Shown piece after piece: positions 28,804 through 40,617 of a DNA stretch of 40,617 nucleotides; position 1 is the stretch's first letter; each line of letters opens with the position of its first letter. Origin of the DNA: Desulfobacteraceae bacterium. Its GTDB lineage: Bacteria; Desulfobacterota; Desulfobacteria; Desulfobacterales; Desulfosalsimonadaceae. The notes below the pieces were generated by a model. It was not told the DNA's origin. It saw nothing but the letters and a program-made list of their open reading frames with translations, and did not search any database. The position numbers and the translations under genes are program-made. The stretch lies in assembly GCA_021737225.1 (NCBI GenBank), contig JAIPEJ010000004.1, forward strand, positions 1 to 40,617, in the 5' to 3' direction.

Positions 28804-28879
28804 GCGCCCGTAGCTCAGAGGATAGAGCGTCAGCCTCCGGAGCTGAAAGTCGCAGGTTCGAATCCTGCCGGGCGTACCA
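28804..28879 (+). tRNA. tRNA-Arg, anticodon CCG
   Basis: 76 bases with all four arms: acceptor GCGCCCG/CGGGCGT (terminal G-U pair), D-stem GCTC/GAGC, anticodon stem TCAGC/GCTGA enclosing loop CTCCGGA (anticodon CCG at loop positions 3-5, reading CGG), and T-stem GCAGG/CCTGC with loop TTCGAAT. Discriminator A and CCA are encoded. It stands alone between folC and the minus-strand genes. Confidence 0.97.
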
Positions 28880-34263: not shown

Positions 34264-34293
34264 TTGACAAATCATGATAAAAACTTTTATTTA
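34264..34293 (+). promoter_or_regulatory. Promoter candidate of the trp operon
   Basis: Perfect TTGACA at 34264-34269, 18 bases, TATTTA at 34288-34293; a start near 34300 would put about 54 bases before the leader peptide. I could not make out a convincing TrpR operator over it. Confidence 0.45.
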
Positions 34294-34353
34294 AGGTTCG
34301 TTATTTTGTTAACAGGCCAAAGGGCCGGATTTGAGACCAAGAGCGCGGCACAA

Positions 34354-34443
34354 ATGACACATCAGATACTGCAGACAATAAGCACGAACAAAAACTGGTG
34401 GTGGCGGATCTCCATATCAGGGTCTGCCTTCGGACCGGTTTGA
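34354..34443 (+). CDS. trpL: trp leader peptide
   Basis: 29 codons from ATG to TGA, with three consecutive Trp codons (TGG at 34396-34404, residues 15-17) in a peptide beginning MTHQILQTIS. Too short for most gene callers. The ribosome-binding site is weak (GAG at 34341-34343). It lies between the trp promoter candidate and a terminator hairpin with alternative pairing, and has the classical structure of a ribosome-mediated attenuator. Three Trp codons in 29 would be very unlikely by chance. Confidence 0.85.
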   Translation: MTHQILQTISTNKNWWWRISISGSAFGPV

Positions 34444-34499
34444 GCCAAACATAGCGCAAACAAAAGACCGAGGCGGCCCCAGGCCCCTCGGTCTTTTTT
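34403..34499 (+). promoter_or_regulatory. trp attenuator (regions 1-4)
   Basis: Region 1 (34403-34410, GGCGGATC) overlaps the last Trp codon and can pair with region 2 (34421-34428, GGTCTGCC) over 8 bp including two G-U pairs. Region 2 can instead pair from 34424-34433 with region 3 (34468-34476, CCGAGGCGG) with one bulge. Region 3 is also the 5' arm of the terminator (34462-34473 with 34486-34497, then T-run to 34499). So 1:2 plus 3:4 terminates, while a ribosome stalled on Trp codons frees 2:3 and allows read-through. Confidence 0.78.
34462..34499 (+). terminator. Attenuator terminator hairpin of the trp leader
   Basis: AAAAGACCGAGG (34462-34473) pairs perfectly with CCTCGGTCTTTT (34486-34497). 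A GGCC/GGCC pairing is possible in the loop, and six T follow the GC stem. Located 19 bases after the trpL stop. Confidence 0.88.
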
Positions 34500-34519
34500 A
34501 TTTTGCATTGATACATTCC

Positions 34520-34553
34520 AAAAAGGCCGCGGGGCAGCCCCGCGGCCTTTTTT
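34520..34553 (+). terminator. Second, stronger terminator hairpin upstream of trpE
   Basis: A 15-bp perfect stem containing GGCCGCGGGG and its complement, with a 3-base loop, followed by six T. It lies between the attenuator and trpE and appears constitutive as drawn. It has A-runs on the left too, so it could work in both directions. Confidence 0.75.
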
Positions 34554-34619
34554 ATGACTACGGTACGAAAAAAGAAAAACCGGCGAAAGATACACCAAAA
34601 AACAGGAAAGGAGCCCGGC

Positions 34620-36110
34620 ATGCTGCTGCGACAATTTCCGGACAAAGCCGCTTTTGCCGAATACTACCGAAACCATAACGTGGTGCCGGTCTGCCGCGAA
34701 ATCCTGGCGGACATGGAAACCCCGGTATCGGTGCTCAAGAAATTATACACCCGCAATTCCCCGGCGTTTCTGCTGGAAAGCGTCGAAGGCGGGGAGCGCT
34801 GGGGCCGCTACAGCTTCCTGAGCACCTCGGCCCGCACCCGGGTCCGGGTGTTTGCAGATGCCGTGGAAATGGAGACCAACGGCCAAAAGGAGCAAATCCC
34901 CCACCAGGGCGACCCGCTGCCGGTGCTGCGCGACCTGATGGAGCGCTATACCCCGACCGTGCTGCCCGGCCTTCCGCGGTTCTGGGGCGGGCTCGTGGGG
35001 TATTTCGCTTATGAAACGGTCAGCTTTTTCGAGGTCATTGAAAACCGGATGCCCGCGGACCGCCCCCTGGCGGATTTCATGATCCCGGATGAAATGCTGA
35101 TTTTTGACAACATTAAAAACACCCTGATGATGGTCGCGATTGCCTTTAAAGACGATCAGGCAGATGCTGAGGCCGCATATGATGCAGCGGAGACAAAAAT
35201 CAACCGCCTGCAGGATTCGGTGCGCGACGACAGGGCCCAACCCTATCCCGAAGCGCAGACGGGCGAAGGCATATCCCTGGCCCCGGTCCATGATGCGGCC
35301 CTGTACAAGAAGCACGTGGAAACCGCCAAGGCCCGCATCCGGGAGGGAGAAATCATCCAGGCCGTGATTTCCCAGCCGTTTTGCGCAAACCGCGTACCGG
35401 CCGATCCCACGGCCCTGTACCGGGCCCAGCGCTATATCAACCCGTCGCCGTACATGTTTTTCATGCATCTCGATGACACCGTGCTGGTGGGATCATCGCC
35501 AGAGACCATGGTCCGCCTGGAAAACAACATTGCCACGCTCCGGCCCATTGCCGGCACCCGCCCGCGCGGCAAAACCGAGCAGGAAGACCGGGCCCTGGCA
35601 GATGAAATGCTGCAGGACGAAAAGGAGCGCGCCGAACACCTCATGCTCGTGGACCTGGGCAGAAACGACCTGGGCCGGGTGGCGGAAACCGGCACCGTGC
35701 AGGTAACAGACCTGATGGTCGTGGAACGATATTCCCACGTCATGCACCTGGTTTCCAATATCACCTGCGATCTGCTGGAAAATTGCGATGCCTGGGATCT
35801 GCTGGCCGCCACATTTCCGGCCGGCACCCTGAGCGGGGCACCAAAGGTCCGGGCCATGGAAATCATCTCCGAACTCGAATCCGAGCCCCGGGGCCCCTAC
35901 GGCGGGGCCGTGGGTTATATTTCCTTTCACGGCAACATGGACCTGGCCATTACCATCCGCACCGCATGCATCCAGGACGGCAACCTCGTGGTACGGGCAG
36001 GCGCCGGCATCGTGGCCGACTCGGACCCGGATGCCGAATACACGGAAACCGTGAACAAGGCCGCGGCCATCGGCCGGGCCCTGGAACTCATGGAACATCA
36101 ACTGCAGTAA
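34620..36110 (+). CDS. trpE: Anthranilate synthase component I
   Basis: 496 residues from the ATG at 34620, which has AAAGGAG six bases upstream; a longer frame from 34554 starts inside the terminator T-run and is rejected. It converts chorismate to anthranilate using ammonia from TrpG. The feedback-inhibition motif LLES is at 51-54. The chorismate-binding core has VISQPFCANR, LRPIAGTRPRG, ERAEHLMLVDLGRNDLG and TFPAGTLSGAPKVRAMEII. First structural gene of the operon; trpG follows after 9 bp. Confidence 0.96.
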   Translation: MLLRQFPDKAAFAEYYRNHNVVPVCREILADMETPVSVLKKLYTRNSPAFLLESVEGGERWGRYSFLSTSARTRVRVFADAVEMETNGQKEQIPHQGDPLPVLRDLMERYTPTVLPGLPRFWGGLVGYFAYETVSFFEVIENRMPADRPLADFMIPDEMLIFDNIKNTLMMVAIAFKDDQADAEAAYDAAETKINRLQDSVRDDRAQPYPEAQTGEGISLAPVHDAALYKKHVETAKARIREGEIIQAVISQPFCANRVPADPTALYRAQRYINPSPYMFFMHLDDTVLVGSSPETMVRLENNIATLRPIAGTRPRGKTEQEDRALADEMLQDEKERAEHLMLVDLGRNDLGRVAETGTVQVTDLMVVERYSHVMHLVSNITCDLLENCDAWDLLAATFPAGTLSGAPKVRAMEIISELESEPRGPYGGAVGYISFHGNMDLAITIRTACIQDGNLVVRAGAGIVADSDPDAEYTETVNKAAAIGRALELMEHQLQ

Positions 36111-36119
36111 GGAGCGGAC

Positions 36120-36689
36120 ATGATATTCGTGATCGACAACTACGACTCCTTCACCTATAACCTGGTGCAATACCTGCGGCAGCTCGAAGCCGAAGTCCGC
36201 GTGTGCAGAAACGATGCCTTTGACATCAACACACTGGACACCAGCGGGTTTTCCGGCATCGTGATCTCCCCCGGGCCCGGGGTCCCGCAAAAAGCCGGGC
36301 ATTCCGTGGAAGTGATCCAACGGTTTTCCGGAAAAATCCCCATTCTTGGGGTGTGCCTGGGACACCAGGCAATTGCGCACGCATTCGGCGGCCGGATCCA
36401 GGCGGCCAAAAAGCTCATGCACGGCAAGGTCTCCACTGTGACCGCGGACGGCAAAACCATATTCTCGCGCATGAACAAGCCGTTTGCCGCCATGCGCTAT
36501 CATTCCCTGGCCGTGGACCGGCAGAGCCTGCCCGAGTGCCTGGAAATCAGCGCTGAAAACGAAGACGGCGAAATCATGGGGCTCCGGCACCGCCAACACC
36601 CCACCGAAGGCATCCAGTTTCACCCGGAATCGATCATGACCCCGGTGGGAAAGCGGATACTCCGGAACTTTCTGAAGTTATGCGAATAA
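36120..36689 (+). CDS. trpG: Anthranilate synthase component II (glutamine amidotransferase)
   Basis: 189 residues, class I glutaminase. NYDSFTYNLVQYL at 7-19, SPGPGVP (oxyanion), GVCLGHQAI with nucleophile Cys79, and the catalytic His-Glu in FHPESIMTP near residue 170. Partner of TrpE; in some bacteria the same subunit also serves PabB in folate synthesis. GGAG lies close to the ATG. The following 293 bp before trpD hold only repeats. Confidence 0.95.
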   Translation: MIFVIDNYDSFTYNLVQYLRQLEAEVRVCRNDAFDINTLDTSGFSGIVISPGPGVPQKAGHSVEVIQRFSGKIPILGVCLGHQAIAHAFGGRIQAAKKLMHGKVSTVTADGKTIFSRMNKPFAAMRYHSLAVDRQSLPECLEISAENEDGEIMGLRHRQHPTEGIQFHPESIMTPVGKRILRNFLKLCE

Positions 36690-36982: not shown

Positions 36983-37999
36983 ATGTTCCGCGATCTGCTA
37001 AACAAGATTTGCCGGAGGCAGGATCTCACCGAGGACGAAGCCGCGTCCATGCTCGGCGAAATCTTTTCCGGAAACACCACGGACGCCCAGGTGGGCGCGT
37101 TCATGGCCGCGCTTGCCACCAAGGGCGAAACGTATACCGAACTTGCCGGCGCAGCCCGGGCCATGCGCAAAAAGGCCGTCCGGATCGAAACCGCCGCAGC
37201 CGACGTGATTGACACCTGCGGCACGGGCGGCGATGCGGCCGGCACCTTTAACATCTCCACGGTCACCGCTTTTGTGGTGGCCGGCTGCGGGGTCACCGTG
37301 GCCAAGCACGGCAACCGGTCCGTTTCCAGCCAGTGCGGCAGCGCGGACTTGCTCGAGGCCCTGGGCGTAAACCTGGACGTTGATCCGGAGCTCGTGGAGG
37401 AAGGCATTGCTGAAACGGGAATCGGTTTCCTGTTTGCACCCAGGTATCACGGGGCCATGAAGTATGCGGCAAACGCCCGGAAGGAACTTGGCCTGCGAAG
37501 CATTTTCAACATGCTCGGCCCGCTGACCAACCCGGCTGCTGCCAATTGCCAGTTGCTGGGCGTATTTGCCCCCCAGCTCACGGAAATGTTTGCCCGCGCC
37601 TTAAACCAGCTCGGCACAAAGCGGGCCCTGGTAGTGCACGGTCATGACGGGCTGGATGAAATCTCGGTATGCGCGCCCACGCGGGTGTGCGAACTGCGGG
37701 ACCGCCGGATTTCCACGTATGACATTTCACCGGAAACCTATTTCGGCCGCCTGGCAGACCCGGCGGAAATCCGGGGCGGAGATGCGGCGGAAAATGCCGA
37801 AATCACCCGCAGCATCCTGGCCGGCGAAAAAGGACCGCGGCGCGATATCGTGGTGATCAATGCCGCTGCCGCCCTGATGGCCGCGGGCCGGGCGGAAAAA
37901 ATCGGCCCGGGAATTGAAATGGCGGAATCAGCCATTGACACGGGCGCTGCCGCGGATAAACTGGAATCCCTGATCGCCTTTACCCGGGAGAATGCTTAA
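36983..37999 (+). CDS. trpD: Anthranilate phosphoribosyltransferase
   Basis: 338 residues, the usual length. DTCGTGGD at 77-84 is the phosphoribosyl-diphosphate loop, followed by NISTVTAFVVAG, the KHGNRSVSS anthranilate-site motif, and NMLGPLTNPA further on. It joins anthranilate to PRPP. GGAGG lies eight bases before the ATG, so translation restarts independently after the repeat-filled gap. The stop abuts the trpC start. Confidence 0.96.
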   Translation: MFRDLLNKICRRQDLTEDEAASMLGEIFSGNTTDAQVGAFMAALATKGETYTELAGAARAMRKKAVRIETAAADVIDTCGTGGDAAGTFNISTVTAFVVAGCGVTVAKHGNRSVSSQCGSADLLEALGVNLDVDPELVEEGIAETGIGFLFAPRYHGAMKYAANARKELGLRSIFNMLGPLTNPAAANCQLLGVFAPQLTEMFARALNQLGTKRALVVHGHDGLDEISVCAPTRVCELRDRRISTYDISPETYFGRLADPAEIRGGDAAENAEITRSILAGEKGPRRDIVVINAAAALMAAGRAEKIGPGIEMAESAIDTGAAADKLESLIAFTRENA

Positions 38000-38785
38000 A
38001 TGGCCGAAGATATGCTGACAAAAATCGTGGCGCACAAAAACACGGAAATCCGTGCCGCCCGTCAGCAGACCCCGGTTTCCGAGCTGGAAACCGCGGCCCG
38101 GGCAAGAACCGATTTCCGCTCTTTTCGCGCGGCAATGGAAAACACGGGTCAGGTCAACATTATCGCCGAGATCAAGCGGGCCTCGCCTTCAAAGGGAGAT
38201 ATCTGCCCGGGGCTCGACCCGGCCCGGCATGCCGCAGCATACCAACGCGGCGGCGCAGCCGCCCTTTCCGTGCTCACGGATGCGGCCTTTTTCAAGGGGA
38301 GCCTGGAAGACCTGGAAGCCGCCCGCCGGGCAACAGGACTGCCGGTTTTGCGAAAGGATTTTATCATTTCGGATTACCAGGTATACGAAGCCGCCGCGCG
38401 CGGGGCGGATGCCGTGCTGCTCATCGTGCGCATCCTGTCTGAATTCCGGCTTTCCGAACTGCTGGATTTGTGCGCGGACCTGGACATGGACGCCCTGGTG
38501 GAAGTACACACCCCGGCGGACCTGGAAATCGCGGCAAGGTCCGGCGCCGTGCTCATCGGCATCAACAATCGGAACCTGGCCTCTTTTGATACGGACATCC
38601 GCACCGCCATGGACATGGTCGCATCCCTGGAATCCGGCCAGATCCCGATTGCGGCCAGCGGCATTGCCTCGCGTGCAGACATCGAGCAGAACCTGGCGGC
38701 CGGAATCCGCAACTTTCTTGTCGGCGAAAGCCTGGTACGGGCACAGGACCCGGAAACTTTTTTAACGCACCTGAAAAACGGGTAG
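38000..38785 (+). CDS. trpC: Indole-3-glycerol phosphate synthase
   Basis: 261 residues, a TIM barrel. The catalytic Lys59 is in IIAEIKRASPSKGDI, with LPVLRKDFIISDYQVYEAAARGADAVLLI, then GINNRNLASF and the phosphate loop ASGIASRADI. It cyclises CdRP to indole-3-glycerol phosphate. The ATG follows the trpD stop directly (TAAATG). It is not fused to TrpF, unlike in enterobacteria. Confidence 0.96.
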   Translation: MAEDMLTKIVAHKNTEIRAARQQTPVSELETAARARTDFRSFRAAMENTGQVNIIAEIKRASPSKGDICPGLDPARHAAAYQRGGAAALSVLTDAAFFKGSLEDLEAARRATGLPVLRKDFIISDYQVYEAAARGADAVLLIVRILSEFRLSELLDLCADLDMDALVEVHTPADLEIAARSGAVLIGINNRNLASFDTDIRTAMDMVASLESGQIPIAASGIASRADIEQNLAAGIRNFLVGESLVRAQDPETFLTHLKNG

Positions 38786-38792
38786 ACTGTCC

Positions 38793-39479
38793 ATGTATAC
38801 CGGAGAATCCTTACACCGAGAGCACGAACGAATCCAGGTCAAGATCTGCGGCATCACCGCGGCAGAAGACGCCATGGCATGCGCCGCCTGGGGAGTTGAT
38901 GCCGTCGGCCTGGTGTTTTACCCCAAAAGTCCCAGGTATGTCACCCCGGCCCGTGCCGCGGAAATCACCGGTGTTCTGCCGGCGCACATCGCCCGGGTGG
39001 GCGTGTTTGTCAACGAATCCGAAGACACGATCATGGAGGCGGCCACCGGCTGCCGGCTGCACGCCGTACAATTGCACGGCGCAGAGCCCCCGGAACTGGC
39101 CCAACGGCTCATGGAACACGGCCTGATTGTGATCAAGTGCCTGTATGTAAACGGCCGGCCGGGGATTGCAGCGGCATCGCAATACCATGTTTCGGCTTTT
39201 CTGGTGGAATGTTCTGCCGGAAAGCTTCCCGGGGGTAATGCCATAACCTGGGACTGGTCTGCAGCGCGGGGCTTTAATGAACAATACCCGTTTGTCATCG
39301 CTGGCGGGCTCGGACCGGAAAACGTGGCCGAGGCAATTGCAGCCGCGCGCCCGGATGCCGTGGACGTGAGCTCGGGCGTGGAATCCGCCCCGGGCAGAAA
39401 GGATACAAGGCGGGTGCGGGATTTTGTTTATGCCGTGCGCCTGTCGGAAATTTCAAATCCAACAAGGAGAATATTCTGA
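38793..39479 (+). CDS. trpF: Phosphoribosylanthranilate isomerase
   Basis: 228 residues. The core starts at VKICGIT (about 16-22) with the catalytic Cys, then [28 protein letters not shown], the catalytic Asp in AITWDW, and the phosphate loop [10 protein letters not shown] with DVSSGVES. The first 14 residues precede the family start and may indicate a later initiation, but no alternative start codon is evident. The stop overlaps the trpB start (TGATG). Confidence 0.94.
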
Positions 39480-40617
39480 TGGCTGAATTACAGGCCGACA
39501 ACCCCATAACCGGATACCCGGATGAAAAAGGACATTTCGGGCCCTACGGCGGCAGGTACGTGGCAGAAACCCTGATGCCGGCCCTGCTGGAGCTAAACGA
39601 AGCCTATCAAAAATACGTCCGGGACCCCGCTTTTCAAGAAGAACTCTACGGACTGCTCAAGGACTTTGCCGGACGGCCCACCCCGCTTTATTTCGCAGAA
39701 CGGCTGACCCGGAAAATCGGGGGGGCGGCCATCTACCTCAAGCGCGAAGACCTGCTCCATACCGGGGCCCACAAGATCAACAACACCCTGGGCCAGGCGC
39801 TTCTGGCCAAATGGATGGGCAAAACCAAGGTGATCGCAGAAACCGGCGCGGGCCAGCACGGGGTGGCCACGGCCACGGCTGCGGCGTTTTTCGGCATGGA
39901 CTGCAAAATCTTCATGGGCACCGAGGACATCCGCCGCCAGGCGCCCAATGTCAACCGCATGGAACTGCTGGGCGCGGAAGTCGTGCCAGTGGAATCCGGC
40001 ACAGGCACCCTGAAGGACGCCATGAACGAAGCCATGCGCTACTGGGTATCTGCCGTGCGCGACACCTTTTACGTAATCGGCTCGGTGGCCGGCCCGCATC
40101 CGTATCCTGCCATGGTGCGGGATTTTCAGAAGGTAATCGGCGAGGAAACCCGGGACCAGGCTTTGCGGGAAATCGGCCGGCTGCCCGACCACTTGGTCGC
40201 CTGCGTGGGCGGGGGCAGCAACGCCATGGGCATGTTTTACCCGTTTGTCAACGATTCCGTGGCCATGACCGGCGTGGAAGCAGCAGGCAAGGGCATTGAT
40301 ACCGGCAAACACTCGGCCACCCTGTGCGCCGGTTCCCTGGGCGTGCTGCACGGCTCCAAGTCCTACCTTCTCCAGGACCGTTACGGGCAGATCAGCGAGG
40401 CCCACTCGGTTTCCGCGGGGCTGGATTACCCCGGCGTGGGCCCGGAGCATGCGCTTTTCAAGGATCTTGGCCGGGTAAAATACGTGAGCGTCACAGATAC
40501 CCTGGCCCTGGAGGCCTTTGCCGCCCTGTGCCGCACAGAGGGGATCATCCCGGCCCTTGAAAGTTCCCACGCACTGTCAGCCGCCATGCAAATCGCCTCG
40601 GATGCGCCAGCCGACCA
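39479..40617 (+). CDS. trpB: Tryptophan synthase beta chain (3' end outside window)
   Basis: 379 complete codons are present, out of about 400 for the family, so only the extreme C-terminus is missing. [17 protein letters not shown] is at 20-36, and the PLP Lys99 is in [27 protein letters not shown] and the phosphate-binding [10 protein letters not shown] also match. It is TrpB1-like rather than the longer TrpB2. It makes Trp from indole and serine with TrpA, expected next downstream. AAGGAGA lies eight bases before the ATG, which overlaps the trpF stop by one base. Confidence 0.96.

Follow-up and report, generated by a model that had tools for sequence, protein, structure and literature searches.

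The stretch of DNA analysed here, referred to as the window, comprises 40,617 nucleotides from a Desulfobacteraceae bacterium, and its 3′ portion carries the genes of a trp operon, all on the forward strand (Table 1). The start of trpE is likely at position 34620, as judged from the aaggag motif that precedes it, rather than at the ATG at 34554 given in the list of open reading frames. The nearest named loci come from Desulfobacterales metagenome-assembled genomes (MAGs), the best of them with a TrpE identity of 97%. Elsewhere in the window is a tRNA gene (28804-28876; Rfam RF00005, 71.3 bits).

Table 1. Leader elements and genes of the trp locus, in window positions.
Feature	Positions	Strand	Basis and remarks
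Putative leader-RNA promoter	34264..34292	+	TTGACA at 34264-34269; weak −10 at about 34286-34292
Leader peptide ORF, MTHQILQTISTNKNWWWRISISGSAFGPV	34354..34443	+	29 codons plus stop; read from sequence
Three consecutive Trp codons, presumed stall site	34396..34404	+	Sequence; at least three Trp in five codons in 66 of 82 loci
Region 1	34403..34411	+	Fold; overlaps third Trp codon, pairs with region 2
Region 2	34420..34433	+	Folds; 34420-34428 with region 1, or 34424-34433 with region 3 (34468-34476)
T1 (regions 3 and 4), intrinsic terminator with U tract (attenuator terminator)	34462..34499	+	Fold, relatives
Region 4 (3′ arm of T1 plus U tract)	34482..34498	+	Masked fold; 34484-34498 with region 5 (34520-34534)
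T2 (regions 5 and 6), predicted second intrinsic terminator	34520..34553	+	15-bp stem, 34520-34534 with 34538-34552; U run 34548-34553
Region 5 (5′ arm of T2)	34520..34534	+	Pairs with region 6 (T2) or region 4 (anti-T2)
Region 6 (3′ arm of T2)	34538..34552	+	Stem partner of region 5
trpE	34620..36110	+	aaggag at 34608-34613; TIGR00564, 522.4 bits (cut-off 517.7)
trpG	36120-36689	+	Family model
trpD	36983-37999	+	Family model
trpC	38000-38785	+	Family model
trpF	38793-39479	+	Best model 211.4 bits, just below cut-off of 215
trpB	39479-40615	+	Family model; continues beyond window

Upstream of trpE is a short open reading frame that the initial annotation had read as a 29-codon leader with TGG-TGG-TGG, and its ATG (34354-34356), Trp codons and TGA (34441-34443) are all present. 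A short leader rich in codons for the end product, positioned between a promoter and the first gene of the matching operon, is characteristic of trp-type attenuation; both features occur here, the translation of the leader being predicted and the promoter being recognised by consensus. No strong Shine-Dalgarno sequence is visible 5′ of the leader. The putative promoter does not appear in the output of an automated promoter scan, and its −10 element is far off consensus. Among related loci, 75 of 77 have a TTGAC[A/T] motif no more than 260 nt 5′ of the Trp run, the mean for shuffled sequences being 8.8.

Folding of the RNA at 34400-34510 gives −48.6 kcal/mol (z −5.28; 0 of 200 shuffled sequences as stable), and the minimum structure consists of 1:2, a small hairpin (34438-34461) and T1. 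Much of what had been annotated is recovered in it: the pairing of region 1 (34403-34410) with region 2 (34421-34428) is found as 34403-34411 with 34420-34428, region 1 does overlap the third Trp codon, and the terminator stem of 34462-34473 with 34486-34497 is present, lengthened by 34475-34478 with 34482-34485. The remaining annotated pairing, 34424-34433 with 34468-34476 (2:3), is absent from the minimum structure, as expected of an alternative pairing, and is seen with region 1 masked in a transcript that stops at region 5. As in other attenuators of the trp type, 1:2 and 2:3 and the terminator 3:4 form mutually exclusive sets, with region 1 within reach of the ribosome; 2:3 is not favoured on energy alone. 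The segment at 34354-34499, together with its flanks, is almost certainly a ribosome-mediated trp attenuator of the trp operon.

The initial annotation had called this attenuator complete and textbook, labels that proved wrong: a second conserved terminator, T2, which the four-region model leaves unexplained, sits between T1 and trpE, about 20 nt past the T1 U tract, and had been overlooked. The automated terminator scan lists T1 and not T2, which probably escaped it because the A tract of T2 pulls the U run into the stem.

Upstream regions of trpE from relatives were compared, starting from 101 loci, of which 98 had a trpE start that could be placed and yielded 82 distinct upstream regions, near relatives being counted separately. 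The Trp codons, whose retention had been proposed as a check, are kept in relatives, as are T1 and the promoter-like site, and the earlier claim of ribosome-mediated trp attenuation in Desulfobacterota is well supported, the nearest named loci being those of the Desulfobacterales MAGs. Of the 82 distinct regions, 77 gave a leader call at a minimum of two Trp in five codons and 66 at a minimum of three, some calls being doubtful and that at L016 probably spurious. No leader was called in L014, L066 and L076, for which only 198, 159 and 303 nt of upstream sequence are available, or in L050 (Priestia, 37% TrpE identity) and L073 (decayed). T1 and T2 are both present in 75 of the 82 regions, a count in which T1 was placed manually in L024 and L029 and the T2 of L031 is weak. 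The seven regions in which they were not both called are L014, L066, L050, L073, L093 (T1 only), L090 (no U run behind the second stem) and L100 (T1 not called). Loci of the same genus carry T2 at a matching position, and in a 41-row alignment of chosen loci two U-run positions behind T2 (T93 and T95) are invariant. The spacing between T2 and trpE differs widely among loci. Extra sequence separates the two in L018, L022, L038, L068, L070, L040, L032 and L088 and puts the leader stop 273-400 nt ahead of the gene; that in L018 and L022 resembles short repeats.

Relief of T1 should still leave trpE blocked if a strong terminator lies behind the attenuator, and T2 would therefore need control. We consider it probable, at roughly 0.6, that the locus is a trp attenuator with two intrinsic terminators in series, run as a relay of six segments. 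The observed basis of this reading is the parts, their conservation and their complementarity, from which we infer that the ribosome stalls, that the segments fold in a set order, that both terminators stop transcription and that 4:5 acts in the cell. In the OFF state of the relay, 1:2, 3:4 and 5:6 would be paired, and in the ON state 2:3 and 4:5. With ample Trp-tRNA, the ribosome would pass the Trp codons, so that 1:2 could form, 3:4 (T1) would form and RNA polymerase would be stopped; any polymerase leaking past T1 would then meet 5:6 (T2). With scarce Trp-tRNA, the ribosome would be stalled on the Trp codons and would cover region 1, and region 2 would take region 3 once the latter had been synthesised. 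Region 4 would then be free to pair with region 5 ahead of the synthesis of region 6, such that 2:3 and 4:5 would prevent both T1 and T2 and trpE would be transcribed. The 4:5 duplex of the window has 14 pairs and one mismatch (−21.5 kcal/mol).

Folding with region 1 masked and unmasked had been put forward as a check of the attenuator, and its outcome depends on where the transcript ends. When the transcript of the window ends at region 5, it adopts 1:2 with 3:4 if unmasked and switches to 2:3 with 4:5 if the ribosome footprint is masked; the masked transcripts of 65 of 73 loci likewise adopt 2:3 with 4:5, the mean being 21% when region 5 is shuffled. Unmasked transcripts with the same end have 2:3 in 34, 4:5 in 40 and 3:4 in 35 of the 73 loci, and masking is not a clean switch at every locus in these predictions. 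Transcripts that end at the T1 U tract mostly do not show the expected switch: when masked, 66 of 73 loci have 3:4 in the minimum structure and nine have 2:3. A reading based on thermodynamics alone thus fails, and one has to invoke the order in which the segments are synthesised. Full-length masked RNA favours T1 and T2 (57 and 66 of 73 loci, with 4:5 in nine) and thus fails as proof of the ON state, which would have to be kinetic and dependent on folding order.

T1 and T2 share sequence in the alignment, and similar complementarity of 4:5 and 3:6 would be expected had T2 arisen simply by copying of T1. The duplex energies of 75 loci average −17.9 kcal/mol for 4:5 and −12.0 kcal/mol for 3:6, with 4:5 stronger in 70 and weaker in three, an advantage that comes in part from the A/U tracts. 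With the A/T tracts trimmed, by an automatic procedure that left odd ends in a few loci (e.g., L003 and L040), 4:5 averages −12.6 and 3:6 −8.9, with 4:5 the stronger in 60 loci and the weaker in 13 (Wilcoxon p 1.5e-8). Own partners give 4:5 a better mean than swapped partners do in 10000 of 10000 permutations; for 3:6, 265 of 10000 reach the own-partner mean. Of the 4:5 cells in the 41-row alignment, 92.3% are paired and 25 have changes on both sides; the paired share is 81.7% for 3:6 and drops to 43-60% when 4:5 is slid by one to three columns. The percentage paired, doubly changed cells and covariation score of 4:5, measures that related rows inflate, are each reached by 0 of 500 shuffles, and its doubly changed pairs (six) and pair types by 43 and 50 of 500, respectively.

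Individual columns can be compared in the same way. At column 42:76, 4:5 reads U:G in 30 rows and U:A in 11, with none unpaired, and its 3:6 counterpart reads A:C in 28. At column 44:74 there are 20 rows with U:A, 13 with C:G, six with U:G and one unpaired; in four of these C:G rows (of 41 rows in all), the G of region 5 faces C in region 4 and only U in region 6. On a TrpE tree that is rough because 11 of the 41 TrpE sequences are short fragments, branch-wise co-change for 4:5 amounts to 5.5 where 2.5 would be expected (a value reached in 19 of 1000 null draws), weaker than in the positive controls 3:4 (13.0, expected 3.3) and 5:6 (16.5, expected 3.6). The corresponding value for 3:6 is 5.0 against 3.0 expected (153 of 1000), and slid pairs show no excess (at least 399 of 1000). 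Tree-aware covariation for 4:5 is modest. In 400 kb of one relative (G004), a stretch that also includes another attenuator of like kind, none of 146 other terminator-like hairpins pairs with region 4 of that relative as well as its own region 5 does, the best foreign hairpin being close (−18.6 versus −18.7); five of the 146 foreign 3′ arms pair with region 5 as well as or better than its own region 4.

Similar arrangements exist elsewhere in the order. A covariance model of T1-T2 (R1), searched in 12 relatives and then in 247 genomes of the phylum, scores strongly only at the trp locus in the window's own incomplete genome and finds similar tandems behind other leaders in the 12 relatives. 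Several matches, at first sight gene ends, proved to be attenuators in reverse complement. Family models were run on L133, L145, L155, L153, L156 and L158, and the remaining genes of the relatives were named by eye. Tyr/Phe-rich leaders precede the gene for 2-amino-3,7-dideoxy-threo-hept-6-ulosonate (ADTH) synthase in eight genomes of the order (L133, L143, L142, L137, L138, L144, L147 and L139, the last with a single U-tailed hairpin called), and L140 has such a leader before the same gene with one hairpin at the match; ADTH synthase is an archaeal-type aromatic entry step. Loci for DAHP synthase have a Tyr/Phe-rich leader in L145 and Trp leaders in L135 and L155, a fusion of DAHP synthase and prephenate dehydratase follows a Phe-rich leader in L156, and trpD follows an aromatic leader in L158. 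Phe-rich leaders with tandem hairpins also precede phenylacetate-CoA ligase-like genes in L153 (just below the PaaK cut-off), L154, L157 (one U-tailed hairpin called) and L149, a placement that would fit the use of phenylacetate for aromatic amino-acid synthesis.

Across the phylum, R1 has matches at E ≤ 1e-5 in 93 of the 247 genomes. Twenty-six phylum loci were inspected, followed by 60 more, 51 of which have a tandem and a leader above a score threshold of our own setting that also admits poor leaders. The genes behind these tandems include trpE, trpD, ilvB and those for DAHP synthase, ADTH synthase, a TrpB-like enzyme, an aminotransferase and a periplasmic binding protein. Tyr-rich leaders (YYYYGY, YYGYGY) with tandem terminators lie before a periplasmic binding protein gene in L246 (assigned to Peripla_BP_6), L271 and L244 (both by eye), which suggests attenuation of an uptake system. 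Tandem terminators also follow possible branched-chain leaders before ilvB (L229, L261), leuA (L239, L264) and leuB (L257); the leaders of L239, L264 and L257 are under the score threshold, and family models were used for L229, L239 and L257 only. A simple scan of the available upstream sequence for four His in seven residues gave no His leaders before hisG in 30 loci (L185-L214), where hisG may not lead the operon.

The preference for 4:5 over 3:6 extends to these loci to differing degrees. The means are −19.4 and −14.0 in 15 Desulfobacterales loci other than trpE (12 stronger, three weaker; trimmed core p 0.003), −20.2 and −15.0 in 23 phylum loci (21 stronger, two weaker; core 11 versus 12, not significant), and −19.7 and −17.4 in the 51 loci (33 stronger, 18 weaker; core 29 versus 19, p 0.006). 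All three sets were drawn with a two-hairpin model and are uninformative on how frequent tandems are. In an independent sample of 60 upstream regions outside the order, chosen by TrpE protein, leaders were called in 38 (22 with tandem terminators, 11 with a single one and five with none) and not in 22, two of the latter being tandem, with several calls that look spurious; 4:5 is stronger than 3:6 in 15 of the 22 tandem loci and weaker in seven. The tandem is near universal in the sampled trpE leaders of the order, not in those of the phylum. We would give even odds to a broader proposal, that double-lock attenuators are widespread in Desulfobacterota. In these, one stalled ribosome would flip two serial terminators through 2:3 and then 4:5 and would keep leakage very low with no repressor involved; the leaders concerned would be those of the Trp, Tyr/Phe and perhaps branched-chain types, and the genes behind them would serve biosynthesis, aminotransfer and uptake.

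The same data can be read in other ways. It could be that an ordinary single attenuator is followed by an independent, partly efficient backup terminator, with T2 a copy of T1 and 4:5 an idle by-product. The sequence shared by T1 and T2 would be accounted for in this manner, as would the 81.7% pairing of 3:6, the modest co-change of 4:5 on the tree, the leaders with one terminator found in the phylum, and the lack of a 4:5 advantage in the trimmed cores of one set outside the order (11 stronger, 12 weaker). Plain duplication of T1 as the entire account is nevertheless disfavoured by the comparisons of 4:5 with 3:6: the former is the stronger in 70 of 75 loci, column 42:76 pairs in all 41 rows of 4:5 while its 3:6 counterpart is A:C in 28, and the four rows with a region 5 G opposite C in region 4 offer that G only U in region 6. 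A strong T2 outside control should, in addition, reduce expression in the ON state as well, and we regard an independent backup terminator as unlikely, though a reading to be taken seriously.

Conceivably, the second hairpin is no terminator in vivo and instead shields or processes the 5′ end of the trp mRNA, or insulates the operon. Its place 5′ of trpE, an A tract that pairs much of its own U run and its omission from the terminator scan would all suit such a role, which requires neither a U run nor complementarity to region 4; the invariance of T93 and T95 and the widely varying distance between T2 and trpE make it quite improbable. That the arrangement is due to chance or to a dispersed repeat can be given almost no weight: GC-rich palindromes are easy to find in GC-rich sequence, but this arrangement is conserved across the order at a fixed place, and the fold has a z of −5.28. 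When 34300-34620 was compared with the window's own genome (77% complete), the only matches were to itself and to the reverse complement of T2, and T2 as a dispersed repeat was rejected.

The six-segment relay can be placed beside attenuators that are already known. In the E. coli trp attenuator (Rfam RF00513, Trp_leader), the leader has a single known terminator and is organised into regions 1-4 with 2:3 as the antiterminator. The window shares its leader with tandem Trp codons, its regions 1-4, 3:4 terminator and 2:3 antiterminator and its location 5′ of trpE, and differs in adding a second terminator and the 4:5 pairing and in that TrpR was not found in 40 genomes. The search for the TrpR family covered the window's own genome and relatives and was negative in all 40, with E. 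coli and B. subtilis positive among 14 controls. Against the RF00513 model, the window scores 16.1 bits (E 1.2), below the gathering threshold of 41 bits, and no Rfam family reaches gathering over 14 related loci.

The his attenuator of Salmonella and E. coli works by a six-segment exchange of A:B/C:D/E:F for B:C/D:E, in which only the last hairpin is known to be a terminator. Like it, the window has six segments that can form exclusive sets of three and two helices, as judged from complementarity and folding; unlike it, both 3:4 and 5:6 of the window have U tracts. A model paper (PMC1183508) puts forward that the additional his hairpin, which is situated between the pause hairpin and the terminator, keeps basal read-through down where an operon is governed by attenuation alone, and holds that the E. 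coli trp operon, having a repressor, requires leakage. In some Gammaproteobacteria, the rimP-leader has a tandem second terminator and a potential antiterminator, and the passage describing it reports no leader peptide, whereas the window has one (PMC2965389). In Desulfovibrio vulgaris, an attenuator is predicted before aroA'-aroB'-aroQ/pheA-aroF-tyrA-[trp operon], and this prediction resembles the window in placing aromatic genes of a deltaproteobacterium under attenuation (PMC1173090). The open-access papers searched yielded no report of tandem terminators combined with a leader peptide and attenuation, nor of attenuation with tryptophan and a leader peptide in Deltaproteobacteria. The element belongs to a known kind, the trp attenuator; its two-terminator relay was not found in the open-access papers searched, and priority is not claimed.

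Placing T2 under the same control as T1 would likely serve low leakage in genomes where TrpR was not found. Overall, the loci point to amino-acid attenuation being common in the phylum and yet going unmatched by the Rfam library used here. The relay proposes a route by which two terminators may be coupled to one sensor and, if true, would explain how an operon can be tightly shut off by attenuation alone.
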